A stretch of DNA of 64,000 nucleotides from Chondrosia reniformis (taxonomy: Eukaryota > Porifera > Demospongiae > Chondrillida > Chondrillidae): assembly GCA_947172415.1 (NCBI GenBank), contig OX359196.1, positions 1,056,501 through 1,120,500 on the forward strand, read 5' to 3'. This document shows positions 13,801-56,742 of the stretch, one piece after another. The position numbers and the translations under genes were made by a program. Below the pieces are notes generated by a model. The model was not told the origin of the DNA. It made no database searches and saw only the letters and a program-made list of their open reading frames with translations. The number at the start of each line of letters is the position of its first letter. Within the stretch, counting starts at the first letter, position 1.

Positions 13801-15972
13801 AGATGAGCTGAGAGGACAAGGATATGATCTGCCCAATGTCCCATAGGGCAAGTTGAGAGGAGGAGGAGGAGGAGGAGGAGGGGGGGGGGGGAGGAGGTGT
13901 GTGTGTGTGTGTGTGTGTGCGTGCATGTGTGAGCAGACCCAAGTGTACTAACCTCTATGTCTGCCACCTTGAGGTTCGGGTGCCTTCGCTGTGCTTTTGG
14001 CCCAAAGGTATGGTCAAACGGCTCAGTGTCGAGAACATGCACCCTAGCATTCTGGAATTGATAAAAATTACAACAACATAAACTACATTAACACTTGCAA
14101 CACACATGGGTGCAAGTGCAGCTGGTATTCAGTCAGATAACAATCATAACACACCATATTTCAATATGCTACATCTGCTGTAGAGTAAAAGTCCTATAGA
14201 GAACATGCACAAACTATAGAAATTCCAATAAAAGTAAAGATTGACAATTTTTAACAGGAAGTAAAATATATTATAAACACTGTATACAATTAATTTAACA
14301 AGACAGATTCCCTCTTGAATTGACTCACTTTAGCTTGCTCGCTTAACAAAGAGATTGGCAATGTTGTATCCTTTAGCACAACCTATACATGTATATACGT
14401 ATACACATACATATATAAACGTATATAAACATACACATACATACACATACATACACATACATACACATATATACACATATATACACATATATACACATAC
14501 ATATATAAACATATATAAACATACACATACATACACATATATACACATATATACACATACATATACATATACTACATATGAGTGACTAGAATCACCTTAT
14601 AAGGGTCTTTCATGGCTTTGCCCATTTCTTCCTGAAAACTTTGCAGAGCTTGTTGAGTGATAACACGCGTATTACCTGAGTTCAATAGGTACAGTTATAA
14701 CTATGAAACTAACTGAAAATACGAGAGGTACAGTTGAGGTATACGAGAGGTACAGTTGAGGTATACAAGAGGTACAGTTGAGGTATACGAGAGGTACAGT
14801 TGAGGTATACAAGAGGTACAGTTGAGGTATACGAGAGGTACAGTTGAGGTATACGGGAGGTACAGTTGAGGTATACGAGAGGTACAGTTGAGGTACAGTT
14901 GAGGTATACGAGAGGTACAGTTGAGGTACAGTTGAGGTATACAAGAGGTACAGTTGAGGTATACAAGAGGTACAGTTGAGGTATACAAGAGGTACAGTTG
15001 AGGTATACAAGAGGTACAGTTGAGGTATACAAGAGGTACAGTTGAGGTACAGTTGAGGTATACAAGAGGTACAGTTGAGGTACAGTTGAGGTACAGTTGA
15101 GGTATACAAGAGGTACAGTTGAGGTATACGGGAGGTACAGTTGAGGTATACAAGAGGTACAGTTGAGGTATACAAGAGGTACAGTTGAGGTACAGTTGAG
15201 GTATAGTTGAGGTATACAAGAGATATATTATGCTTGTTAGCTAAATTGAAATAAATTGTTGTACAAAACTGAAAAGAGACACAACATACCAAACCACTTT
15301 TTATTCGGTTCGACTCGAGCTACATCACCAGGTGTTGCGCGAGTTTGAAAAGGAGCAGCCTTGATAATCTTACCCTGCCTATTTCTACAGTGATCCAACA
15401 CCAGATAAGGGTATGGAGAAGCAAACATTCAGGGATGTTTACATATAAAGCACATGAAATAGAAATCATCAAGATATTTCAACAAGAAACGACACTCCAG
15501 CGTGAGAATGCAAATCACAGCAATTGACTAGACTGGATACACAAGCGCTACAATACATAATAAATCGTTCGCTGTACTTAAAGAGCTCTAAATCAACAAC
15601 ATAAGAGGACGTAACAGACAGCGACATGAAGTGGCTTGGCTTCGCTTGTGACCTACCTGATAGCTTTCCCTCCAGACTTGTACATCTGTAGACGCTTGAT
15701 GGTAGCTTTGTCTCTCGCATTGTGAATCTTCTTTTTCCCCTTCAGCTCCCGATCTACAATAAGCAGACACAGTAGATCTTATTATACTTACGTAGGTAGG
15801 TATATAAGATCTATGGTAGAATTGTATAGTATTATAGACTAACTCCGTAGTCTAGCTAGCTAACTCTGGTCCTAGTGCCAATCTAAATAAATGTCATACG
15901 AGTGGCTGCAGACTGCAGCTGGTTGGTACCTGGGTTGGAGCTGCTGGCTGACTTCTTGATCGTTTTGGCCAT
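4836..15972 (-). CDS. GNL2: nucleolar GTP-binding protein 2 (NOG2/GNL2), 17 exons
   Basis: Circularly permuted YlqF/YawG-type GTPase that works in nucleolar 60S ribosome assembly. Exons, 5' to 3': 15930-15972, 15657-15753, 15290-15384, 14596-14675, 14329-14382, 13953-14051, 13183-13213, 12530-12584, 11827-11923, 10886-11014, 8986-9099, 8554-8579, 7830-7932, 7648-7752, 7278-7436, 6666-6755, 4836-6146. They sum to 2,688 nt (895 aa plus stop) with every junction in phase, and follow the human protein nearly end to end. G4 NKCD at about 250-253 comes before the P-loop GYPNVGKSS (about 312-320) and DCPG (about 356-359), the permuted order of the family. [13 protein letters not shown] closes the conserved part. 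The last exon (about 436 codons) is long, acidic and repeat-rich, then basic; it makes the protein longer than the roughly 730-residue vertebrate form. Start: ATG at 15972, followed by MAKTIKKSA. Confidence 0.96.
5700..5825 (-). repeat. coding repeat in the GNL2 acidic tail
   Basis: About nine copies of an 18-21 bp coding unit giving NRTGEED-type heptads or hexads ([35 protein letters not shown]). A second short coding repeat at 4975-5065 gives four ARSTFQEE-type octads. Both are in frame within the last GNL2 exon. Confidence 0.85.
6870..7060. repeat. interspersed repeat family B copy in GNL2 intron 15
   Basis: Shares GGAATTCCTAGA, TGTCTG..CA..TGGAG and CTCATCCAAAGCTCT with copies near 18360-18480, 41930-42070 and 52500-52610. 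Non-coding; candidate SINE. Confidence 0.6.
7141..7277 (-). repeat. tandem array of 5' splice-site sequences after GNL2 exon 15
   Basis: Read on the gene strand, exon 15 ends CACAAA and is followed by GTGAGTAAGAGACCCTTT repeated with small changes. At least five copies keep GTGAGTAAGA; two have decayed to GTGATTAAGA; one more GTGAGTAAAA lies further on. The 18-nt unit begins exactly at the splice donor. Confidence 0.9.
8091..8318 (-). repeat. 21-bp minisatellite in GNL2 intron 12
   Basis: About 11 units of CTAGCCTCCCCTAAAGATGGT (plus strand) with A/G and T/C variants. On the gene strand each unit holds CTTTAGGGGAGGCTAG, two AG-ending words resembling weak 3' splice sites. The open frames seen across it are products of the repeat, not genes. 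Confidence 0.9.
9520..9868 (-). repeat. 24-bp CA-rich minisatellite in GNL2 intron 10
   Basis: About 14 nearly perfect units of CACAAGTACACAAACACATA plus CATA. All six frames stay open, which creates spurious ORFs on both strands. Confidence 0.93.
10043..10866 (-). repeat. higher-order CA-rich minisatellite in GNL2 intron 10
   Basis: Built from ACACACCTGCACAAGTACAC and ACAAGTAC or TCAAGTAC submodules in units of about 34 and 44 bp. It begins about 20 nt inside the intron after the exon 10 donor. On the gene strand each unit includes TGTGCAGGTGTGTG, which resembles both an acceptor and a donor. Confidence 0.9.
12006..12236 (-). repeat. 18-bp G/C-strand-biased minisatellite in GNL2 intron 8
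   Basis: About 12-13 units of GGGGGAGGGGGGTTTCTT (plus strand). Every unit carries two G runs of five or more, so the plus strand is a strong G-quadruplex candidate; on the transcript it is C-rich. It lies about 80 nt upstream of the exon 9 acceptor. Confidence 0.93.
13262..13475 (-). repeat. 30-bp GT-rich minisatellite in GNL2 intron 6
   Basis: Units of GTGAGCATGTGTGAGTGTGT plus GAGCGTAAGT repeat about seven times next to the 3' splice site of exon 7. The antisense open frames here are repeat artefacts. Confidence 0.88.
13500..13846 (+). mobile_element. 3' fragment of a non-LTR retrotransposon in GNL2 intron 6
   Basis: On the plus strand (antisense to GNL2) one frame reads [19 protein letters not shown]; after a 1-nt shift the next reads [13 protein letters not shown], then [20 protein letters not shown], then a W...DR..W motif and a stop near 13846. 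The order LRWFGH - R.G.P..RW.D is the C-terminal tail typical of LINE-type reverse transcriptase polyproteins. It is 5'-truncated and frameshifted, so dead. It is followed by a GGA run and a GT run (13856-13920), perhaps the original 3' tail. Confidence 0.8.
14383..14578. repeat. ACATAT/ACATAC microsatellite cluster in GNL2 intron 4
   Basis: Imperfect (ATACAC)n and (ATATAA)n alternation starting 3' of exon 5's acceptor side; no coding content. Confidence 0.85.
14718..15225 (-). repeat. 22-bp minisatellite in GNL2 intron 3
   Basis: About 24 units of AGAGGTACAGTTGAGGTATAC (plus strand), some lacking the middle so that an 11-bp half unit repeats. On the gene strand the unit AACTGTACCTCTTGTATACC closely resembles the last bases of the intron before exon 4, AACTGTACCTATTGAACTCAG. 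Confidence 0.92.
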
Positions 15973-16383: not shown

Positions 16384-19173
16384 TCAGTCTAACTGTCTAC
16401 TAGAAATGTCACTCTTTAATCGACTGCTCAAACTCTTGTGGCCGAGCTGGTCAAGAACATGCAGGAGAGAACTCCAGGTGGCATCTGGAGTTAGCTCCAA
16501 CCACTTTGTAAAGACATTTGCACAGCGATCCACAACTCTGTTGTGGTCCCTTTCAATTTGGCTGACGAGATTAGGTGGCTCCAAGAGCATCTCTGCCAGG
16601 CCTTGCCAGAGAGAGGCGGCATGGGGAATGACATGCTTTCTCAGCTGTTTCATTGTTGGCCTGGAGTCAAGAGCTGTGAATGGAAGAGAAGAGATTGGTA
16701 CATTGTCATTAATCCGAAAGGCTGTGTGTGTTATAAAACAACAGTTTCAGCTGTAGCTCTGTCTCAATTGTAAGTTAGTGATTTTAGTGAATACCACTTC
16801 ACTAATTTAGTGCAGTAAATATTTTAGATTTGAATGATTTCTAAATTGTTTTATAAAGCACAATGATTTAAGACTATATTGCAGTACGTATATATCTATG
16901 CATATCTTTCTTAAATGTCTACCACATAATGTTAATATTACATAAGGGGATGTTAATATTACGTAAGGGGATGTTAATATTACGTAAGGGGAGGTGATGC
17001 ATACAAATCATACTTGCTGGTCCACTGGGCTCGTAGTCACTCTCTGGCACTGGGTTATCTATAACATATAACAGATAAGAGAACCACAAGTTTAGATTTC
17101 CAGAGAACCAACTAAACTCTAAAGCATTTCAATTGTTAAAGTCTCCTATAATAAGACTAACATTGAGTCCCTACAGAATGGCTCCTGCTGAATTGGGATC
17201 GTGAAGGATACAGTTGGACTATGTCTGTGAAGAATAGATAACAAGATGAATATCAGTTGGATTAAGAATTTCTTTTAATTACCTCAAACTTAACTTTTGA
17301 ATGTTTCATCTTTCAACTTTTTGAGCATTTTAGGATGATGGAGTTGGTTCAATGGATGTTTTGACCCCAAGGGTCTTTTTCAGCGACTTACTCTGACAAA
17401 CAATTAATCCAACTGCATCCTCAGAAGCTTAAAAAGTCAACAGATGAACATTCCAAAGATCAATTGAATAAGTACAAGTTTGGAAATTTCAAGAAAACGT
17501 ACAGGCAAACGTGCACACTACAACAATCACAACCACTGCTAGTGTAATCAGAGGATGATTTCGAACTTGCTCGATCATTTGATTGAAAACATTCAAAAGG
17601 ACATTCGCTATTGACTCTAAAAGAGAAAAAAGGAATAATTTAAACAGTGAAACAGTGAAAGGTGTCATTGTAAACTGCTTCTATATGCTATTAATGTATA
17701 TAATGGTGTTAAGAGACTTATATCCATGTTGGGTATGTAGTTGTTACCATTGGTTACGGTTTCTCCTTCGGATGGGTCAGAGTTTTGGATGGAGGATCCT
17801 TTTCTTCTCTGTACAAGTGTTCCTCCGACCACAATGGAGTCATTACTACTGATGTCTTCCTCTGGAATTGGGCTAGCAACTTCCTGTGAGACCTTTGGTG
17901 GAATGACCCTTGGCTCTTGCTGAATCTCCTTCATTGCTTCTAAATGACCAACCATACAAGATTTACATACGTACATTGAATTCACCACCTAGTACTCTCG
18001 AAAGGGTTCATCTTTCAATCTTTTTTGAGCATTAAAGAGGCAATTTTGGTTGAAGCTTCTTGTTGGACGTTTTAACCACAGTCTAAGACTCTTCTTCAAC
18101 AACTTATCAAAAGATGAACCCCTTCCAAGATAAGTTAGAAGAAATCCTATCACCAATCACCTCCTAGTCAGATTATACAAGATGATGTAACCTGACTATG
18201 AATAATAATTAGAAATAAGTAATTAAAATATGTAAATATAAAATTATATAATAAAAATATTTAAATAAATGTGGCCAGTGATTGATATAAAATGTTAAAA
18301 CATTTCCAAGAATTTAACATTACTGATTGACAAAAGATCAAGAAAAAAACAGAGATTCCCAGGGTCACTGATGAAGGGTAGAATTCCTAGAAACAGCTGT
18401 CTGTCCCAGTGGAGCAAAAGAAGAAAGAGAAAACTCCTGCATTCTCATCCCAAGCTCTCACCAGTTTTAGTTCCCTATAGAGTTTTTATTTATCCCAGAA
18501 TAGGCATAGCACGTAGGAAAATGGTGTATTAGATTATTCATTAAACACATGATTTCAAAAATATTGGGTAATGGCACATATAAGGAATGGATCACAAATA
18601 TTATGCAATAATGTATCCTCTGGGGTTAGTGTGGGTGCGGCTAGGGTTAGGGCTAGGTTAGGTTTATACTATATTATTGCATAATAATTTCGATCCATCC
18701 TTATATGTGCCATCTACCAAAATATTTTCCTATCTCATATAGGATAAGGCTATTATACCTTAATACCTCGAAGAACTAAACCTGATTAATTGTTTTTAAC
18801 GTAATGTGCATGAACCATATGATTAGTCAGGACACCCAGGTAGACTAGCAACTTTAGCTGATGGGTCCTTCATGTTGAAATATATCACTACTATTCTACC
18901 TTGAAGACTATCATACAGATGCGTCATTCCAGCTGTGTTCACGAGAATATTCTGAAAAGCATAAAAACCATCTCTACTTCCGTTCATCAGAAACTTCAGG
19001 AAGGCTTCGTTCTGCATAAAGCTGACCTTCTCCGACTTAATTTCTTCGTGCGCCTCGAAAGTTATGACTCCCTTGCTGAGTAGTTTGGGTCCAACAGAAT
19101 GATAGTGAAGCTGCTGACGAATATCATCGTAACAACTCTGTAGGGTGCGATATTCCAAATCCGTCGGCAACAT
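16384..19173 (-). CDS. CARD - transmembrane - death domain protein with alternative 3' ends
   Basis: Exons: 18900-19173, 17748-17939, 17503-17616 (or to stop at 17489), 17014-17058, 16384-16673; all junctions are phase 1. Long form 304 aa. Residues 1-91 look like a CARD (LLSKGVITFEAHEEI, then FLKFLMNGSRDGFYAFQNIL). A linker rich in P, E and S follows (exon 2). Exon 3 encodes a hydrophobic helix, PLITLAVVVIVVVCTFA. Exon 5 encodes a death-domain-like fold: LWQGLAEMLL, VVDRCANVFTKWL, DATWSSLLHVLDQL. If the donor GTACGT at 17502 is not used, exon 3 reads on for only four codons to TGA (17489), giving a 197-residue CARD protein whose last residues are the hydrophobic helix, i.e. a tail anchor. Likely an innate-immune or apoptosis adaptor; the function is inferred from domains only. 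Start: ATG at 19173, since the upstream in-frame codon is only TTG. Confidence 0.8.
16927..16995. repeat. 22-bp direct repeat x3 in the CARD gene's last intron
   Basis: Three copies of GATGTTAATATTACGTAAGGG differing at one base. Confidence 0.8.
17275..17465. repeat. interspersed repeat family A copy
   Basis: Holds the family landmarks CATCTTTCAACTTTTTGAGC, TTGACCCCAAGGGTCTTTTT and, near the end, AGATGAACATTCCAAAGATC, which is an inverted partner of the start. Lies in the intron next to the transmembrane exon of the CARD gene. A second copy lies at 18000-18130. Confidence 0.65.
18360..18480. repeat. interspersed repeat family B copy
   Basis: Matches 41930-42070 over CACTGATGAAGGGT.GAATTCC, AGCTGTCTGTCCCAGTGGAG and ..TTTTAGTT..CCTATAG. 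Lies in CARD gene intron 1. Confidence 0.7.
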
Positions 19174-19389: not shown

Positions 19390-21674
19390 CTATTCTGTTG
19401 TATGTCCTCTGTGTGTATGATTAGTACTAATTCCTAGTCCAGTCTTTCCTCGCTTTACATCAACTGGTATTGGATTGATGATGCCATTCTCTTGAAGTCC
19501 AAGGCCTTGCCACGGAACCCATCCCATGTTCAGTAGCATCTTGTGTCCAATATTATCTTCCTCCAATGGAATTGCAGTTTTTTCTTCCAGCCTTTCATTA
19601 CATGAAACTAAATGGAAATGTACAGGAATATAGTAATGGTAGGAGGAAAACAGTAGGGAGGGTGAAGATAGTAGGGAGAGGGTAGGAGAGAGAGGGTAGG
19701 AGAGAGGGGGTAGGGAGAGGGTGGGAGAGGGTAGTAGAGAGGGTAGAAGAGAGAGGGTGGGGAGGGAGAGTAGTAGGGCAAGGAAAGGCATACATGAAGA
19801 TAAGGATGAAAAGCCTTATCATACCAAATAGAAAAGTCAATTCTACCAATGTGACAGGAAAAACGTTTAACATATCAATAACCTATAAAATGCAATCTTT
19901 CAATTTCTACATACGTACACAATTACATGCAGTCCAAGAATATTACAGTAGACAGGTTTAACAATTCTATGTAATACAACTGTGACTGTGTTATCAGCTT
20001 ACTGGGTGGCCAAGGTCACCTCCACAAATTAGTAAACAATCCTTATTACACTACACCTACCAACTGCCCCCAGCATTGAACACATTTCAATCAGCTTTAC
20101 ATAGAGTGCGTACATCATACCCAGTCACACTCTGATACAAACAACACATTTCATATATCCACCTACGTATAGCCTTCAACTCTATTTATACGTACATTTA
20201 AACTCACTATCAACTACGAAATTGGGTTTTATTAATTATTACAAATTGTGTCTCAAAATACTAAAGATGAACCATTTCAAAGATATATAGTTTGAGGAAA
20301 TTCCTGTCATTTGGATTTTATTAATTTGTGACAAAGTAGACTCTATTCATGCATGTGATATGGTATGTGTATGTACTGACCTGGTGGGTTAGTTACATAG
20401 CCACTCAGCAGTTTGCTAACGGCTTCCTTTTCTGGTAGTTGAGTGTCTAGTGTTTTGGTGAGTAGAACTACTCCAAATTTGAGTGTAATGCCTCCATTTT
20501 GAACACAGTCTATGTGATACAATTCAGCTAACTTTGAGGCTAAATTACAGTTAACTCTAGTCATCAGCGGAAGAACCAATCTCTGCTCAGTTGACTGGCA
20601 GAACTTGACAATCTCTTCATTGACATCCTGAGGCGAGAAGCTAGAGGATCTTGTTTGTTGTGGTCTTCTAGAAATAGACTTTCTCGCAGCCACCTTTTTC
20701 TTTTCCCTCCTAAAAACCACCTTTCTTTTATCTCTTCCCATTCTCACCTCACTCACAGAGTCGGTAAACATTTTCCACGAGTCTTCTGTCATTACAGGTC
20801 GTAGGCCTTCAATAATGGTGTCCAAAGAAGATGGATCACTGCCATAAAATGTGTCATCTTCACTGCTGCAAACTCCATCTCTGTCCCACCAAACTTGTGA
20901 GGATGAGGTACAAGGTTCAAAACTGCTTTCTTCGTCATCTCCTTCCTGGCCCAGCTCGTCTGCAGTCTCACTCAGGTCACTTTCGCTGTCTCCATAGCAA
21001 CTGTCCATATAGATTGAGCTCGAATGGGGACCTACTGGAGTGAGAACTGGCGAATCTTCTTCCATATCTTCATCTAGCGTAGGTGTAGCAAAGTCGAGAT
21101 TTCTGGGCGTGTGCTCGCTGGTGTCTGTAAGGTCGCTACTACGAGGCTCTTCGTCGTTGTTGATAAGGTACTGTTGGATATCACTGGTGGAACTGATCAT
21201 GCGAGGAATGCTGCCATTACACTTCCTTCTGTTTGATCTCTTTGTACCGCACGAAGAGCCAATGGGATCGTAACGCTGTCTTCTCATTAAATAACTGCCT
21301 CCCTTTTGCGGCATACTCGTTCTCCGGCTGGAACTAGTTCCAGCTGAAATACAGTATTCCAACTTATCCATTTCTGTGAGCGATAAAGTCTTTCTTCGTT
21401 TTCCACGCTTCTGAAAGCGCTTTGTATTTCTCTTTCGCTGTGTCCTGCACTTGGAGAACCGTATTGGCGAACAAGGAGCTTCGCTGCAGCTGGATACAAG
21501 TGATTTGGAAATCTCAGCCGACTGGAGTAGGTCTGATTCATACGGATGGAAGTGAAATGAATGCAGTCTGCGACACACTTCTTTGTCTAAATCTTCCGAG
21601 GTACCGTCCAACTCCCTGACACCCCTTCGCTTTCCCTTGCTGACTGATTTGACGTTACTCGTTTTTGTACTCAT
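19390..21674 (-). CDS. R3H and G-patch protein, GPATCH2-like
   Basis: Two exons, 20381-21674 and 19390-19607, phase 1, giving 503 aa (human GPATCH2 is about 528). The N-terminal half is basic and S-rich, with an acidic S/D/E block in the middle (about 190-270). An R3H-like segment follows (about 370-432: LPLMTRVNCNLASKLAELYH). The second exon carries a G-patch: MLLNMGWVPWQGLGLQENG, then PIPVDVKRGKTGLG. R3H followed by a C-terminal G-patch is the layout of GPATCH2 and yeast Sqs1, cofactors of the DEAH helicase Prp43/DHX15 in splicing and ribosome biogenesis. Start: ATG at 21674; the in-frame codon upstream is TTG. GPATCH2L is an alternative assignment. Confidence 0.82.
19640..19780. repeat. 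polypurine GGTAGGAGAGAGAGG array
   Basis: Irregular GGGTAGGAGAGAG units in the single GPATCH2-like intron; C/T-rich on the transcript, close upstream of the exon 2 acceptor. Confidence 0.85.
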
Positions 21675-47067: not shown

Positions 47068-47827
47068 CATCAACTGTCTGAATGCAGTGTGGAATGATGT
47101 GATACAATGCACTAGAATGTGCTTGACTAATAGTAGTAACTCGTTCATTCATCTAAATGTAAATATCACCTACCATTCCTTTTTTGCACATGCATGTTCA
47201 CTTTTTTAATTGTCTATTCACCATATATATATATTCCATAATATTATCATTCTATTTCTGGTTTTTACTTTTGTACATATTTTACTTTGATTGGATTTTC
47301 AACTTATATATATTGAATTAAATCGAATTGAATCAAATCAAATTGTATTGAATGCACTGAATGGATGAAAGATGCACATTTGTAGCCAACAACATCTTCT
47401 CTCTACTTCTTAGTCTTGAAAAGTACATATGAATAGTCCATTTTACTGCAGACACAGTTGACAATATGTGGCAAATGAAAAATTATTAATCAGAGATAAC
47501 CTATAGAGCTTTGGATGCGGATACAGTTTTTTCAGCCATTTTTTTCTCCCTTTTTCCACTAGGACATGCAACTACCTAAATTGTTTACTGAAGTCATACA
47601 CATGTGGTAGATATTATATAGCTGTATTTGTGAAGGAACAGTAGACGTCCATAATACTGATAATTAAACACTAGGGCTATTTCTTGTATATCACTTTGAA
47701 AGTGCGAACATAGACTGAATGCAGTAATAACGATATTCATAGACTTCCTTACAAGGGCGAGTAAAAGGGGCGTATGCTGAGTCACGACTTACAAGATTCC
47801 TGACCTCTCAAATAGAGACAGGACGAC
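47068..47827. promoter_or_regulatory. intergenic, C1orf74-like 3' flank and next gene's promoter
   Basis: 760 bp, AT-rich, with AATTGAATC..ATCAAAT words near 47320; no exon. Confidence 0.55.
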
Positions 47828-49885
47828 ATGGCTTCGAGCGTTTCTATGCCAATTAAAGAGGTTTTCCTTTATGACAACGGTTATGCAGTTTTCCATCGAG
47901 AGGCAGAAATCACCGGAGAAGGCCACATAAATCTCTTCTTCCACAGCAACCACGTGAAGAGCGTCTTGGAGTCGCTCAGATTTTATGGAGACGCGGGAAA
48001 CAAGATTGGAAACATTGCTTACGAGGCCACGAAGCCAAAGGCAAATTTCCGCATTTCATCCGTCAGTCCCTACCAGTCGCTGATTCAGCAAATGGTCGGC
48101 AATGATGTGACGTTGCAAGTCGTGAAGAGAGATGGTACAGGCGAGGAAGAGATCAGCGGAAGAGTACTGGGGATAGATGATCTTTTTGATGGAGCTTCCA
48201 AGGAATCCGTATCTCATGCAATTGTCTTTATAGATTCGACCAAGGTCGTGTCCATCCCTCTCCACTGCTTAACTGGAGTCAAGCTAACTAATGAGAGAAA
48301 GAAGCATGATATTAAGCACGCACTGGATCTTTCCACCACTTCCGAGGAGGACCAAACTCAGAAGCTCTGTGTTTTCTACTCGGATGTGCCTGGCACCAAG
48401 TCTGTCCAGTGCCAGTATGGGCTGGAGGTTGCAGAATGGCAGAGCTCTTATCGCCTAGTCTTTACAACCGAAACCCTTACTGCGTTTGAGCTCGATGGGA
48501 TGGCCATTGTCGAGAATACTCTTGATGAAGATTGGACCAACGTCCAGTTGACCCTGATTGTTGGAGCTCCAGCTCTGCATGCTTCTAAGAGTGCTGTGGA
48601 GAGTGGCCTGTGGCAGCTGACAATTAAGCATTTCCTTGGAGGGGAATACTTTACCATTCGCTGCAACGTAAAAGACTCGGTTATGAGCCTTAAAATGAAA
48701 ATTAACAAAAAGAAGAAGATTGACATTGCTCGTTTTAATCTTGTGTTTGCTGGAAAAGAATTGGATGATGGTCGTCTTGTGTCAGACTACACCATCAGAG
48801 ATCGCTCCACTTTGCATATGGAACCAAAAAAGGCAACCCAGAAAGGAGGCGGAGTCGGAGAAATGTCACAAGGTGAATTTGTAATGTCCTCGCAGGATAG
48901 CCTCTCCTATTACCCAATCAAATCAAGAGTTACTGCTCAACGCAAGCAAAAGGCCGTTGTACCACTGCTACAGGCTAAAATGACATCACAGAGGATTGTC
49001 CTGTATGACGAGACTGTCTTTACCGGAAACCCACTTGCGGCCATTTTGTTTGAAAACACTACTGGTCGCATTTTGGATGGTGGAAAAATTCAAATTTACC
49101 ATGGTACCCGTTTCCTAGGTAACAGTGATCTTCCATGCCTCCACCCGGGTGACGAATGTCCTCCAATTCCATATGCAGTAAAGATGGGTTGTGAAGTCAA
49201 CAAGACCATTGCAACAAAATACCTGGACTGGCATGCTGTTGATGTTATCGAAGGAGAGATTCGATTGATCAGAAAGAGGCATGAAATAACTACGTATGCC
49301 ATTCGCAACAAGACGGAGGATGAGTTGGACTTCCTGCTCAACCACCTCTTCCTTGAGAACTATGACCTCGTGAGGGAGGACCTCATGGATGAAATTGGAG
49401 AGCCTGTAGATATCACCGATAAGGTCTACCAGTTTAGGTTCATTGTCGAACCCAAGGACCAAAAAAAGAAGTTTCTAATCACAGAAGAATGCGAGGACTT
49501 GAGGAAGACTGCCCTCTGCAGCATCACACACAGAGACATCCAGGAGTATGAGGACAAGAAGTGGCTAAACAAGGAGACTATTCAGGTCCTCAGAGAGATA
49601 GCAAACGACTCCAAGGAGATGAACAGTCTTACAAATGCTGTCTACGAGAAGGAGAAGGAGATTCGTGAGATCAAGGACAGACAGCAGGACCTTCGTGATA
49701 ACATCAAAACGGTTGAAAACAGCAAGGTGGATGCAGCCAAGTACATTAAGGCTTTATCTGTAGGCGAGGATAGGATGCACACACTCCAGCAGGCTATAAA
49801 GACCTCTAGGGAGAAGAAGACTGCAATTAGCAAGAAGCAAGGCCAACTTATTAGTGATTTGAAGTATAATGCTAAACTGAATTAA
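47828..49885 (+). CDS. DUF4139-type protein with inserted ubiquitin-like domain
   Basis: Intronless, 685 aa, higher GC than its surroundings. The N-terminal part (IKEVFLYDNGYAVFHREAEI, then VLESLRFYG...GNIAYEATKP) and later WQSSYRLVF...DGMAIVENTLDEDW follow a bacterial (notably planctomycete-type) DUF4139/DUF4140 pattern. Residues about 260-336 are a ubiquitin-like domain: WQLTIKHFLGGEYFTIRC, FNLVFAGKELDDGRLVSDY, IRDRSTLHM; no terminal Gly-Gly, so it is a fixed fold, not a tag. The DUF4139 core then resumes (ILFENTTGRILDGGKIQIYH...LHPGDECPPIPYAV). The last about 95 residues are charged and helical (coiled coil). Function unknown. The ubiquitin fold may recruit partners. Lack of introns plus bacterial-type homology raises transfer or retroposition. 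Start: ATG 47828, in GACATGGCTTC. Confidence 0.75.
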   Translation: MASSVSMPIKEVFLYDNGYAVFHREAEITGEGHINLFFHSNHVKSVLESLRFYGDAGNKIGNIAYEATKPKANFRISSVSPYQSLIQQMVGNDVTLQVVKRDGTGEEEISGRVLGIDDLFDGASKESVSHAIVFIDSTKVVSIPLHCLTGVKLTNERKKHDIKHALDLSTTSEEDQTQKLCVFYSDVPGTKSVQCQYGLEVAEWQSSYRLVFTTETLTAFELDGMAIVENTLDEDWTNVQLTLIVGAPALHASKSAVESGLWQLTIKHFLGGEYFTIRCNVKDSVMSLKMKINKKKKIDIARFNLVFAGKELDDGRLVSDYTIRDRSTLHMEPKKATQKGGGVGEMSQGEFVMSSQDSLSYYPIKSRVTAQRKQKAVVPLLQAKMTSQRIVLYDETVFTGNPLAAILFENTTGRILDGGKIQIYHGTRFLGNSDLPCLHPGDECPPIPYAVKMGCEVNKTIATKYLDWHAVDVIEGEIRLIRKRHEITTYAIRNKTEDELDFLLNHLFLENYDLVREDLMDEIGEPVDITDKVYQFRFIVEPKDQKKKFLITEECEDLRKTALCSITHRDIQEYEDKKWLNKETIQVLREIANDSKEMNSLTNAVYEKEKEIREIKDRQQDLRDNIKTVENSKVDAAKYIKALSVGEDRMHTLQQAIKTSREKKTAISKKQGQLISDLKYNAKLN

Positions 49886-50726
49886 CACACATTTATAGTT
49901 AGAGCTTTGACTTTTGTCTATATAGGATTATACTGTAAGACTGCCTTTTTGAAGTAGGATCATCACAATTGTTTTCTTTGTAAGATTGTGAAATCAATTT
50001 CATTACCTATGACTAATGGTATACAATGTTATGACCATTATATGCTATACACTGGAGCAGGAAATTTCAAGTGAATATATTTCACTAGTACTCTTTACGA
50101 GAATTTTTCTGTTCAAATTGCAAAATTTATATATTCATTTAATTAAATATACATGTAGCAGTTGAAAAATGTTATTCATATAGATATAGAAATAAGAGTT
50201 GGTGTGTCCCTGCAGCGCTAGCGCTCGAGCCATTCCGCATACCCTCTCGATATCCGTGTGTATCACTCCTTGGCATCATTTACAAGATCAGCATCACCTT
50301 TTTATTACTCAAACTGACTGCATGTGCATGAACACAAGTGCATGGACAATTAATTATAACATTTGCATGACAATAATAACTTGCCTTTTACTCCATTTAC
50401 AATTCACTGACATCAACCTATTTTATAATTTTCATTTTCCATGATCTGTCTATTGTATAATAAATAAACAATCCAATCCAATTTACCCAATAACCCTTCC
50501 TCTTAATTGACATACCAAAGTCAAATGTATATACCATATATGCATATACTATTTACAGATGCCACGCTCTGTATAAATTTATATATATATACAGCAATTG
50601 CAAGTATTTACACTGTATGTAACTGGTATTCCCCTAATGCTAGTTTACCATATATATACGTACATATACGTACCCTAAACTCTAGTTTTCAGTTTATATA
50701 TTAAGGGAAGAGTTGAGCTGATCATC
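49886..50726. other. intergenic, 3' flank and promoter of the CARD gene
   Basis: AT-rich; AATAAATAAACAATCC near 50460 can serve as a polyadenylation signal. No exon was seen. Confidence 0.55.
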
Positions 50727-51854
50727 ATGACACAAGTACAAGACTGGCAGTGGATTCTTTATAAATACTGTCATGAAATGACCCACAAACTAGATATGGA
50801 TGATCTTCTAATGGGCCTGATTTCTGAAAACCTGGTCACACACAAGGAAAGAGATGAGATTAAGGCAGCCAAGACCAAAAATGACAAGATCTTGAAAATG
50901 CTAGATGTTTTAAGTCTTAGAGGTCAAAATAAAAAAACCTTTAAGAGGTTTTTAAAGGCTCTGACAGTTGCAGACCAGCACTTGGGCCACGAAATCTTTT
51001 GTGAATCACTTAGACGGGTATATGAACATATAAAGAAAATGAGAAGAGAAGGGAAGCTTGTAAAGGGAGATCCATCTATGGCTACCTATAAAGAGTATGA
51101 AGTAGTGGCTCAACATTTCAGAATGAGGTTGTCCCTTAAGAGTACTAGTTCAGGGTCATCTGAAGAGGAGAACAAGGGCTACACTGATAAGTCACTGGTT
51201 GAGGCAATCAGGGAAGAAATTCTCTGTCAACTGAAAAGTGCAGCTAGCACTCTAACTAAGGATATAGCTCAAGTTGGGGAGGAGATTCAATCTGTTTTTC
51301 AGAAAGTAAAAGAGCAACTTCAAGATCTAATTCAAAATATTCATGAAATGTTTAAAAGACTTCAGAAACTAGAAGAAATTGAATCAGAAACATTTAGGAC
51401 CACAGATGACACAATGCTACCCCAACCCTCCACATTACCGCTCCAATCATCCACATTACCGCTCCAACCATCCACATTACCGCTCCAACCATCCACATTA
51501 CCGTTCCAACCATCCACATTACCGCTCCAACCATCCACATTGCCATCCACATTGCTACCTCAAATCACAGAGCTTGAGAAGAGGGTTAATAAGAAGGAGG
51601 AAGATGAAGAGATTTATCTTAAACTAGAGGATGGCTATGTTAAAGCTAAAGGAGAGGGCGGACCTGAAATGTTGCACAAAACTACAAGCACTGACACACC
51701 TATAATGCCACCTAATCACAACATGTCCTTAGAAAAGCCAAAAAAAGAAGAAAGTGATGAACTGAAACACTGTTCTGTTGAGTCTGGTAAGGTCAGAAAG
51801 GAAGATAGGAGAAAAATTTCTTATGGAAGAAAATGGAGAGACCCCAAGATTTAG
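50727..51854 (+). CDS. CARD and coiled-coil adaptor-like protein
   Basis: Intronless, 375 aa. Residues about 8-95 have the CARD pattern: LDMDDLLMGLISENLVTHKE, RDEIKAAKTKNDKILKMLDV, KKTFKRFLKALTVADQHLG. Residues 155-225 are charged and helical (coiled coil or helical bundle). A tandem motif PSTLPLQ (about 6 copies, 21-bp units at 51419-51545) follows. The C-terminus is basic (RKEDRRKISYGRKWRDPKI). No catalytic domain is present, so it is probably an oligomerising adaptor in innate immunity or cell death. Its 3' end recurs, inverted and decayed, at 62278-62435. Confidence 0.75.
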   Translation: MTQVQDWQWILYKYCHEMTHKLDMDDLLMGLISENLVTHKERDEIKAAKTKNDKILKMLDVLSLRGQNKKTFKRFLKALTVADQHLGHEIFCESLRRVYEHIKKMRREGKLVKGDPSMATYKEYEVVAQHFRMRLSLKSTSSGSSEEENKGYTDKSLVEAIREEILCQLKSAASTLTKDIAQVGEEIQSVFQKVKEQLQDLIQNIHEMFKRLQKLEEIESETFRTTDDTMLPQPSTLPLQSSTLPLQPSTLPLQPSTLPFQPSTLPLQPSTLPSTLLPQITELEKRVNKKEEDEEIYLKLEDGYVKAKGEGGPEMLHKTTSTDTPIMPPNHNMSLEKPKKEESDELKHCSVESGKVRKEDRRKISYGRKWRDPKI

Positions 51855-53073: not shown

Positions 53074-56000
53074 CTAGAGTTCATCTCTCTTGGTTTCAGT
53101 GTCTTCAGAATTAAAACCCATAAATGCTTTCTCTACGTCTTCTTCCTCACTATCACTTGGGTCACTATCACTGTCATTTTGTGGTAATTGTTTTCCCTTG
53201 TTTATTTTCTCCTTGCCTCCTTTTCCTACATACAGCAAAAGAGGAAAGACTGAGTCTCGGATTCCACTTCAAAATTAACATTGAAAATTTAATTTTAAAG
53301 TAGAAAGAGGAAATGGAGGCAAGTGAAGAGAAAATGGTTTGGATAATTTATTGTTTGAATTTTCAAAATATATTCACTGATAATGTACTAATAACTACAT
53401 AATTCTATGAATAATTTGGCTACCATAAATGTGCAAAAAATATTTTTAATTAAAGCATGTATTTACACACACTTTGATAATGATTCATGTAGTTTATATA
53501 CGTATATTAAATTACCAGTTGATCGCATATATAAGAAAATAGTACAACGTTGATTCTATAATATATATTATACAATAGAATTGGATGGTTGGATATGTGC
53601 CTCTTACTGTATAATCACTGTCATAGCAATGGCTACCATGGAAACTAGTGAAGTCACAATGTTTGGTTTTAGATACTTATAAGTTAGAAAACAGAAAATG
53701 ATTGGAAGAACCGTATTGTACCAAGGGGGAAGAAGGTGCTTGTTTGTCACCAGAGGAGAAGGAGGAGATGTTTCTTTACTTTTAGACTTTTCCTTTTTCT
53801 TCTTCTTCTTTTCTGAAGTCTGTGTCTTCTTTTCTACCGGTTTAACACATTGTCCATCTTGCTGAACCAGACCCTCTTTACAATCACATTTAAAGGAACC
53901 TTGTAGATTTTCACACTTCTCTGTTTCATTATTACACGGATATCCTTCTTCTACAAACTCACACTCATTCAGATCTGCAACATAACAACATTACCAGTCA
54001 CATAGCATACAGATACACACACAAATATGTACATATGACATTACTTAGGTTGAATGTATATATTTAACTATATGGAACATGCGTATGTATGCATTTACTT
54101 ATATATGTACATATGTACACGTATGTAGGCCAAAATTCTAAGTCAGTATCCTTTCAAAAGACATTTGTTTGGAAATATTAAAATGTCGCATTACACACTG
54201 TTCTCCAAGTATCACAGAAGTACGTAGTTGTACTTGGCTCTGTTACAGAGAGGATCAATGGTGACACAATGTGGTCAGTTTTTCTTTAAAGAATCTGGTC
54301 TAAATCTAAGTCACGTTGTTTATAGTTTCTGTCCTCCTGGTTTTATCAGAAAAACAGTAGCAACAGGGAAAATGGAAGCACAGTGTAGTATGAGTGAAAG
54401 ATTTGACTAGACTTCCCATAGGTCATCCTATGGTGGCTAGTCTAACACTGAACTAAATACATTACTGCACATTCAGTTAATAACAGAACTTCTTACAAAT
54501 CGTCAGATATGTAGCTCTTAATTCTCACCTGTACATGTCCCATCCTTCATCTCATATCCGTCAGCACAGTCTATACAGCTGTGAGATCCAGGACCATTAC
54601 ATCCCAGCTGACAGGACACATGACAAGCTGAGGAAGAGAGTGAGGTGCGTGTACGTACACATGAATGAGTGCGTGGGTGGATGGGTGTGTGAGTGGGTGG
54701 TTGGGTGGATGTGTGAGTGGGTAGATAGGTGTGTGTGTGGATGGGTGTGTGAGTGGGCGGATGTGTGAGTGGGTGGATGGGTGTGTGAGTGGGAGGATGT
54801 GCGAGTGGGTGGATGGGTGGGTGGGTGGGTGGATGGATGGGTGAGTGGGTGGATGGATGGGTGAGTGGGTGGATGGATGGGTGAGTGGGTGGATGGATGA
54901 GTGGAAGGATAGATGATGGATGCATTGATGAGAGAGGGTGGATGCTTCAGTTGGATTGTGATGTATGCACTCACTTTCACATCTGTAGGATCCCAGTTTG
55001 TTGGCACAGTACGTTCCTTCTTCACATTCCACTTCTCCTTTTGAACACTCGTCAACATCTTGACAAAAGTGGTGTTCTGACATCTCATACCCACTGGCAC
55101 ATTCAACACACTTTAGAGGTCCAGGCCCTGTGCAGCTATCTTTACAGGAAGTGTCGCAAGCTACGTACGATGAGACAGAACAGACTACTGTAAAATCCTT
55201 AATATTAACGTCCATTATATTTAGCGTTTTACCATACATGACTTATAAGCATCCTTTAAATTTAGTTACAAATACGTGTACCACACTACTGCGCATGCGT
55301 AATAATAAACATTTTAGATGTTAGCGAATGATATCGCATCGCTAATTTCGCTAACATTAATGGTGCGCTAATATTAAGGGTTTTACAGTAGTTGATATAC
55401 AACAGTCCAACACGTATGATAGCACAGTACGTAAGTATGTAATTGTATGCATGGCATGAAGTGATGAACAATCACTGGAAATATTACGTTGACCAGCCAA
55501 GTGACTTACAGTAAGTCTTACCTTGGCTGGAGGACTGAAGTCCTATTGAATGGCAATCAGTACTTGCCTCCAATATATCCAGTGATTATTTTGTCATAGA
55601 ATGTATAGTCTTTAGACACACAAAAAAGATGAACCATCTCAAAAATAAGTTTTGAAGATATCTCTATAATCTAAGGTATATGTAGTCTGTTAATTAGTGC
55701 ATATGTACAGATATGAAATGTGTTAGTATACGTATATGGAAACAGTAGATAATGTAAGGTATGATTCGGTTTGCGACAATGGCTTCCTAAAATGTATGAA
55801 CATGTCCAGGAACTACGTATGTATGTGCTGGTTGATAAAGTGACTCAGTGACTCATTACGCAATACTAGAACCAGGCCTGACATGTGATCATGTAGGTAG
55901 ATGAGGAATGTTGGTTGAGGATTATTATGTAGCCCCTTCACACAGATATTGCACAATCATTTTCATTTTATTTATGGGTTACTGTGTACGTAAGTTCTCA

Positions 56001-56742
56001 AGATAGACACGGTTATGCACTGTGTTGCTATAGCAACCATGTTACACCACCCACCTTGACATTTATAGGATCCTTCAGTGTTGAAACAGAATGTTCCAAT
56101 ACCACAAGAGACATCCTCCGATTCACATTCGTTGACATCTGTAGAGAGGAAGCATCAGAACTACATATGCAGCACAACAGCCCTCCTCCTCCTTCCACAC
56201 CCACCCCCCCTTACAGGAGTCACACCCTCCTGGTCCACCCTCCTTACATTTCAGTTAGCAGGACACATGACAAGCTACAGGAACAAGATGACAGTCATGT
56301 GACAGTCATGTGACAGTCATGTGACAGTCATGTGAAAACATACAAGTTGATGGCATATAGTTCCTAAACATTCCAATAGAAGATATAAAAGAGATAAATA
56401 AGGCATTTATCTAACCATTAATGTACATAACTGTGGACCTCAGGTACACACAGACGTACTTAGTTCAAGTTGGTCAAACGCTGTAGGACACAAATGAATC
56501 TCTTTACACACATCTGTACCTATGCAGGTGTCACTGTCATTATAGTAGCCAGGGAAGCAATCTTCACACATATCTCCATGGTAACCAGTGTCATAGACAC
56601 ATTTTCCACTTCCATCTCTATTCCCTGCTCCTTGAAGCAGAATGGAAACATATCACCTTTGATCTCACATTACTGACTAATATCCAACTCACTTCGCAGT
56701 TGCCATGACTACTGAACACCTGATCAGGACCTCCAGGACATA
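53074..56742 (-). CDS. CRELD: CRELD-like EGF/furin-repeat protein with two alternative last exons; 5' half damaged
   Basis: Cysteine-rich ER protein of the CRELD family. Exons, 5' to 3': 56693-56742 ([16 protein letters not shown]), 56520-56630 ([20 protein letters not shown]), 56176-56274 (furin-like CHVSC...), 56055-56138 ([15 protein letters not shown]), 54975-55160 (furin-like plus DVDECSKGE), 54529-54627 ([13 protein letters not shown]). Then either 53604-53974 (DLNECEF EGF, a basic K-rich linker, and two hydrophobic segments [11 protein letters not shown] and [17 protein letters not shown]) or 53074-53225 (acidic, ending KRDEL). Both last exons fit phase 1. The first corresponds to membrane-anchored CRELD1, the second to soluble ER-retained CRELD2. 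Damage: a phase mismatch between the first two exons, an in-frame TAA in 56176-56274 where the sister exon has Gln, and no CRELD N-terminal domain or signal peptide found upstream. It may be a recent pseudogene or carry assembly errors. Confidence 0.82.
54228..54410 (+). other. unassigned 60-codon open frame in a CRELD intron
   Basis: Plus-strand frame with four cysteines and [20 protein letters not shown], a little like a Cys-rich extracellular module. There is no clear acceptor or donor pair and no recognised family. It may be a relic exon or chance. Confidence 0.25.
54640..54910. repeat. GGTGGATG-rich minisatellite in a CRELD intron
   Basis: Irregular units of GAGTGGGTGGATGGATGGGT and GTGTGTGAGTGGG variants. 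Long antisense P/H/T-rich frames are artefacts of it. Confidence 0.9.

Follow-up and report, generated by a model that had tools for sequence, protein, structure and literature searches.

A candidate gene joining a CARD, a membrane helix and a Death domain through phase-1 exons in the sponge Chondrosia reniformis

A candidate gene in which a CARD, a predicted membrane helix and a Death domain follow one another was delineated on the minus strand, at positions 19173-16384 of the window, i.e. the whole 64,000-nucleotide stretch of Chondrosia reniformis DNA that was analyzed. Its five exons join to encode 304 amino acids. On the sequence evidence, a CARD-TM-Death gene is the simplest supported reading of this DNA. 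It seems rather probable that we are dealing with a single compact gene for a death-fold signalling adaptor, with a membrane CARD protein among its products.

Exons, domains and membrane helix of the candidate gene

The exons considered are the following, including an additional candidate, exon X, located in intron 3:

18900-19173, minus strand: exon 1, 274 nt; start codon and CARD; donor AAG/GTAGAA
17748-17939, minus strand: exon 2, 192 nt; P/E/S-containing linker, phase 1-1
17503-17616, minus strand: exon 3, 114 nt; membrane helix, phase 1-1; donor CCT/GTACGT
17162-17224, minus strand: candidate exon X, 63 nt, phase 1-1
17014-17058, minus strand: exon 4, 45 nt; short acidic spacer, phase 1-1
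16384-16673, minus strand: exon 5, 290 nt including TGA; Death domain and stop

All five exons show GT/AG borders and every junction falls in phase 1. The coordinates and the phase-1 joins given in a preliminary description of this DNA were thus correct. Nevertheless, that set of exons is not unique, since exon X (17224-17162) was absent from it, and the all-phase-1 pattern, while true, is less distinctive than it had appeared: four exons of an EGF-type gene in the same window are also joined in phase 1, so the pattern is no special mark. Between exons 1 and 5, the internal exons (2, 3, X and 4) can be combined in 16 ways, and the frame is open in all of them. The splice pattern is therefore not fixed by the sequence, and intron retention is not singled out by it.

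Splice donors were scored with a single donor table. The donors of the candidate gene scored from -0.32 to 0.74, which places them between the 87th and 92nd percentiles of the GT dinucleotides of the window, as against 4.1, 6.1 and 7.1 for three donors of the neighbouring EGF-type gene evaluated with the same table. The weakness of the donors, on this one table, makes the exact exon borders uncertain. Among the five donors scored in the gene, that of exon 3 was the strongest and that of exon X the weakest. Concerning the acceptors, exon 3 had the best of the five scored, while those of exons 5 and X stood at the 99.5th and 96th percentiles, respectively.

The codon use of the internal exons was compared with that of 3,000 null stretches, in a background that may include unseen exons. 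The score of exon 2 exceeded all of them and that of exon 4 was reached by 2.1%, so both look coding by this measure. The scores of exon 3 (matched by 39.5% of the null stretches) and exon X (49% as high) were indistinguishable from background. The codon table is slightly diluted, because one of its eight training stretches (19393-19600) was out of frame, with 6 stops in 69 codons. When splice sites and frame alone were considered, pseudo-exons of the quality of exon X occurred in 3 of 48 background blocks, and a threshold admitting both X and exon 4 gave at least one pseudo-exon in 12 of the 48 and at least two in 5. Judged by these two features, neither X nor exon 4 thus exceeds chance expectation.

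The CARD profile match covers residues 20-90 (about 19116-18904, in exon 1). With exon 1 alone as the query, PF00619 gave E 3.6e-5 and 24.1 bits, a margin of 0.2 bit over its cut-off of 23.9, whereas the whole 304-residue protein gave 22.0 bits, under the cut-off; the CARD score is marginal. Ten matches to solved chains were obtained at E up to 10, nine to Apaf-1 and one to Src. The best were to Apaf-1, at a non-significant E of 0.16, and no MAVS chain was among the ten. The AlphaFold2 single-sequence model of exon 1 was poor (pLDDT 50), and for this reason a structure search with the CARD was dropped. By a count made by eye, 6 of the 64 codons of the exon 2 linker are for proline.

Concerning the Death domain, the match lies at about 16620-16411, in exon 5, and PF00531 surpassed its cut-off of 22.6 bits both with exon 5 alone (E 1.9e-6, 28.3 bits) and with the whole protein (25.3 bits), in agreement with the earlier assignment. 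The AlphaFold2 model of exon 5 displayed five helices with a pLDDT of 86. A Foldseek comparison of this model with the PDB, run to E 10, listed 9 matches, of which none reached 0.001; the Fas-FADD complex came second (E 4.1, prob 0.25, TM 0.49).

The predicted membrane helix, at about 17551-17504 on the minus strand, is the single strong hydrophobic stretch of the protein. Its best 19-residue Kyte-Doolittle mean was 2.28 in the 304-residue form and 2.84 in a short form considered below. As a null set, 4,000 open stretches of 38 codons were drawn, with overlap, from four regions elsewhere in the window; a mean of 2.2 was attained by 13 of them (0.325%) and one of 2.8 by none. The hydrophobic helix is therefore beyond chance, and the single helix previously recognized is borne out. 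Inclusion of exon X makes the hydrophobic stretch longer and places basic residues behind it, and the charge over the 15 residues past the helix window changes from -4 in the 304-residue form to +2 in the form containing X, a change from which no firm conclusion on topology can be drawn.

A region at 17150-17440 on the minus strand contains an imperfect inverted repeat by which, in a predicted RNA fold, the acceptor of exon X becomes base-paired to intron 3 (MFE -68.1, z -2.69, 1 of 200 shuffles as good, for a region picked after the repeat had been seen). According to this fold, the repeat could mask the X acceptor.

Searches for relatives of the candidate gene were negative within their scope. 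Scans of viral, bacterial and archaeal contigs, which reach close relatives only, produced peptide-pattern stretches of which none was confirmed by tblastn: 5 for the 304-residue protein and 7 for exon 1 in the viral_contigs set, and 26 for the protein and 170 for exon 5 in the genome_contigs set. Concerning paralogues in the window, phmmer on its 1,487 frames of at least 25 amino acids found none below E 0.2 besides the query frames. PADLOC gave no family and NCBIfam none for the CARD-TM-Death protein, and there was no Rfam match at gathering scores.

Possible products and putative role of exon 3

The gene can be viewed as a probable series of phase-1 cassette exons, carrying the CARD, the linker, the membrane helix, one or two spacers and the Death domain. 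The candidate exons, their frames, the domains and the helix are read from the sequence itself; transcription as one unit, topology, the kind of membrane, partners and function are inferences. The product containing exon 3 would most likely be a membrane-anchored CARD protein working in the way of MAVS or CARD19, with its CARD in the cytosol, where CARD-CARD contacts would gather partners at the membrane surface and nucleate signalling. One helix between the two domains would leave CARD and Death domain on opposite sides of the membrane, and, by analogy with the orientation of CARD19, the Death domain would be out of reach of partners in the cytosol. To our knowledge, there is no precedent for a Death domain placed across the membrane from its own CARD. 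With the Death domain cut off from the cytosol in the membrane form, the sensible products would be a membrane CARD protein and a soluble CARD-Death protein, and it is on this account that we favour one gene for an adaptor that gives rise to a membrane CARD protein. Since exon 3 is of phase 1-1, it can be skipped in frame, with removal of the helix; leaving it out would give a soluble CARD-Death adaptor with the layout of RAIDD. If the gene has a choice point, exon 3 is the likely one. Neither the placement of the two domains on opposite sides nor this in-frame skipping figured in the preliminary description.

That exon 3 actually serves as a cassette, skipped to give the soluble RAIDD-like adaptor and included to give the membrane CARD form, is a tentative reading that we hold to be somewhat unlikely. 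Its 114 nt in phase 1-1 and the open frame of exons 1, 2, 4 and 5 (266 amino acids) fit it, and skipping would put both domains in the cytosol, as in RAIDD (PMC7290664). However, any exon of phase 1-1 can be skipped in frame, and the acceptor of exon 3 is the best of the five scored.

The preliminary description had placed the switch elsewhere, proposing that a failure to use the exon 3 donor (GTACGT, at 17502) would yield a 197-residue tail-anchored CARD protein, of the MAVS type, beside the Death-domain form; such a product would also call for a poly(A) site in intron 3. Two features are relevant to it:

17489-17502, minus strand: frame continuing beyond the donor of exon 3; C completed, followed by T-F-S and TGA at 17491-17489
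17274-17279, minus strand: ATTAAA, the sole A(A/T)TAAA of intron 3; possible, putative poly(A) signal of the short form

The read-through was as described, C-T-F-S followed by TGA, for a total of 197 amino acids, and judging from these four open codons a tail-anchored form is possible. The frame stays open up to a stop right past the helix, the ATTAAA lies 210 nt downstream of that stop, the exon 3 donor is weak compared with the three of the neighbouring gene, and the topology would be coherent, with a cytosolic CARD and nothing across the membrane. Against this, a stop within four codons, in a phase-1 reading, follows 51 of the 332 GT sites in the window that resemble donors (both strands, score of at least 2, as compared with at most 0.74 for the gene's own donors), and when the 278-nt stretch 17502-17225 was shuffled 5,000 times by single nucleotides, 50% of the shuffles had at least one A(A/T)TAAA hexamer, so the near stop and the hexamer are both at chance level. 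The exon 3 donor, being the strongest of the five in the gene, is not marked as the unused one. Moreover, the short form ends one residue past the helix, and in CARD19 the removal of the residues after the membrane helix led to an ER instead of a mitochondrial location (PMC8997538). The first frame reported for BinCARD was traced to an incompletely spliced mRNA (PMC8997538), the same kind of inference as that behind the short form. We thus do not uphold the MAVS-like splice switch, which we consider improbable. Skipping of exon 3 is the more coherent switch of the two, and equally unproven.

Both ideas can be merged in a switch at exon 3 by which anchor and Death domain become mutually exclusive, an end in intron 3 giving a MAVS- or CARD19-like product and skipping a RAIDD-like one. 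We give this little credence; if true, one invertebrate gene would choose between membrane signalling of the antiviral type and signalling of the caspase type.

It is also quite unlikely that the DNA contains two adjacent genes, one for a CARD-TM protein (exons 1-3) and a separate one for the Death domain. The peptide of exon 5 has an in-frame methionine ahead of the Death match, and the first of the two genes could use the sole A(A/T)TAAA in intron 3. However, the acceptor of exon 5 is good and in the right phase, and exon 4, coding-like in its codon use, joins exon 3 to exon 5 in frame. In addition, a G-patch frame on the same strand ends at 19390 and an ATG-led frame stands at 15972, which leaves scant space for a CARD gene and a Death gene standing apart. 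Concerning the 3′ end, no A(A/T)TAAA was present between the stop at 16384 and position 15305, the nearest, at 16420, being within the last codons. It seems reasonable to retain, as the preferred interpretation, one adaptor gene from which a membrane CARD protein is made.

Other features of the window

A second CARD gene was observed at 50679-51854 on the plus strand, as a 391-residue frame with a PF00619 score of 24.3 bits (cut-off 23.9). Its CARD is followed by a region that matches helical families weakly, in each case under the cut-off, and by a short proline repeat; the gene had no NCBIfam match above cut-off. The two CARDs were not significantly similar by phmmer (E 1 to 3.5). Also on the plus strand, at 47816-49885, a frame of 689 amino acids matches DUF4139 (E 2.6e-8) with an overlapping match to the ubiquitin family (E 2.6e-13), as if a ubiquitin fold were inserted in DUF4139. 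The EGF-type gene used above for comparison is partly contained at 53604-56138 on the minus strand, with an EGF_CA match and four exons joined in phase 1, their borders being set by eye; we take it to resemble CRELD.

In intron 1 of the CARD-TM-Death candidate (18005-18120), AAGATGAACC occurs as an inverted pair, and it is found at five other places in the window. These 7 copies, against 0.24 expected, are perhaps the ends of a small mobile element. Window-wide, TACGTA occurs in 91 copies against 21 expected by base composition, and the observed/expected ratio of CpG is 0.43.

Comparison with known adaptors

The likeness to vertebrate MAVS, i.e. CARD, linker and C-terminal helix, concerns only the hypothetical 197-residue retention form. 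Vertebrate MAVS differs from that form in having a longer linker and more residues after the helix; it is further marked by its place in the outer mitochondrial membrane and by its binding of RIG-I-like receptors. The linker of RAIDD, in turn, is shorter than the long one found here. RAIDD/CRADD combines CARD and Death domain in one adaptor, its Death domain binding PIDD and its CARD binding caspase-2 (PMC7290664), and the 266-residue form without exon 3 has the same layout; the difference is that RAIDD is cytosolic and has no membrane helix.

CARD19 resembles the candidate protein in its N-terminal CARD and in a central membrane helix, beyond which lies a C-terminal tail; its N-terminus is cytosolic and its C-terminus lies in the intermembrane space, the deletions in that work covering residues 147-183 (PMC8997538). 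CARD19 is described without a Death domain, whereas the 304-residue form has a Death match past the helix. The retention form, with one residue past the helix, does not have a tail of the CARD19 kind either. A form of CARD19/BinCARD without the helix has been taken as an isoform, BinCARD1 and BinCARD2 both being considered real (PMC9508095), or as derived from an mRNA whose splicing was incomplete (PMC8997538).

The same parts are united in oyster CgMAVS, an invertebrate death-fold adaptor in which a CARD at the N-terminus is accompanied by a Death domain and a membrane helix, and which was reported in the cytoplasm (PMC5557890). Among the MAVS proteins covered in the literature consulted, it alone carries a Death domain, and MAVS was reported missing in all the cnidarian species of another survey (PMC8260672). 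The earlier statement that no such gene had been described should thus be restricted. The set of parts is not new, and it is their order that differs, CgMAVS being CARD-Death-TM and the sponge candidate CARD-TM-Death. The oyster order can let both domains lie on one side of the membrane. No CARD-TM-Death gene was present among the literature matches listed, which covered titles and the beginnings of abstracts, most subscription journals being outside, and as far as searched this order is new. With CARD, helix and Death domain on separable phase-1 exons, the gene would illustrate how the gain, loss or choice of exons can give rise to adaptors of the MAVS and RAIDD kinds and, if both products exist, it would be a direct test case for the splice control of death-fold signalling.
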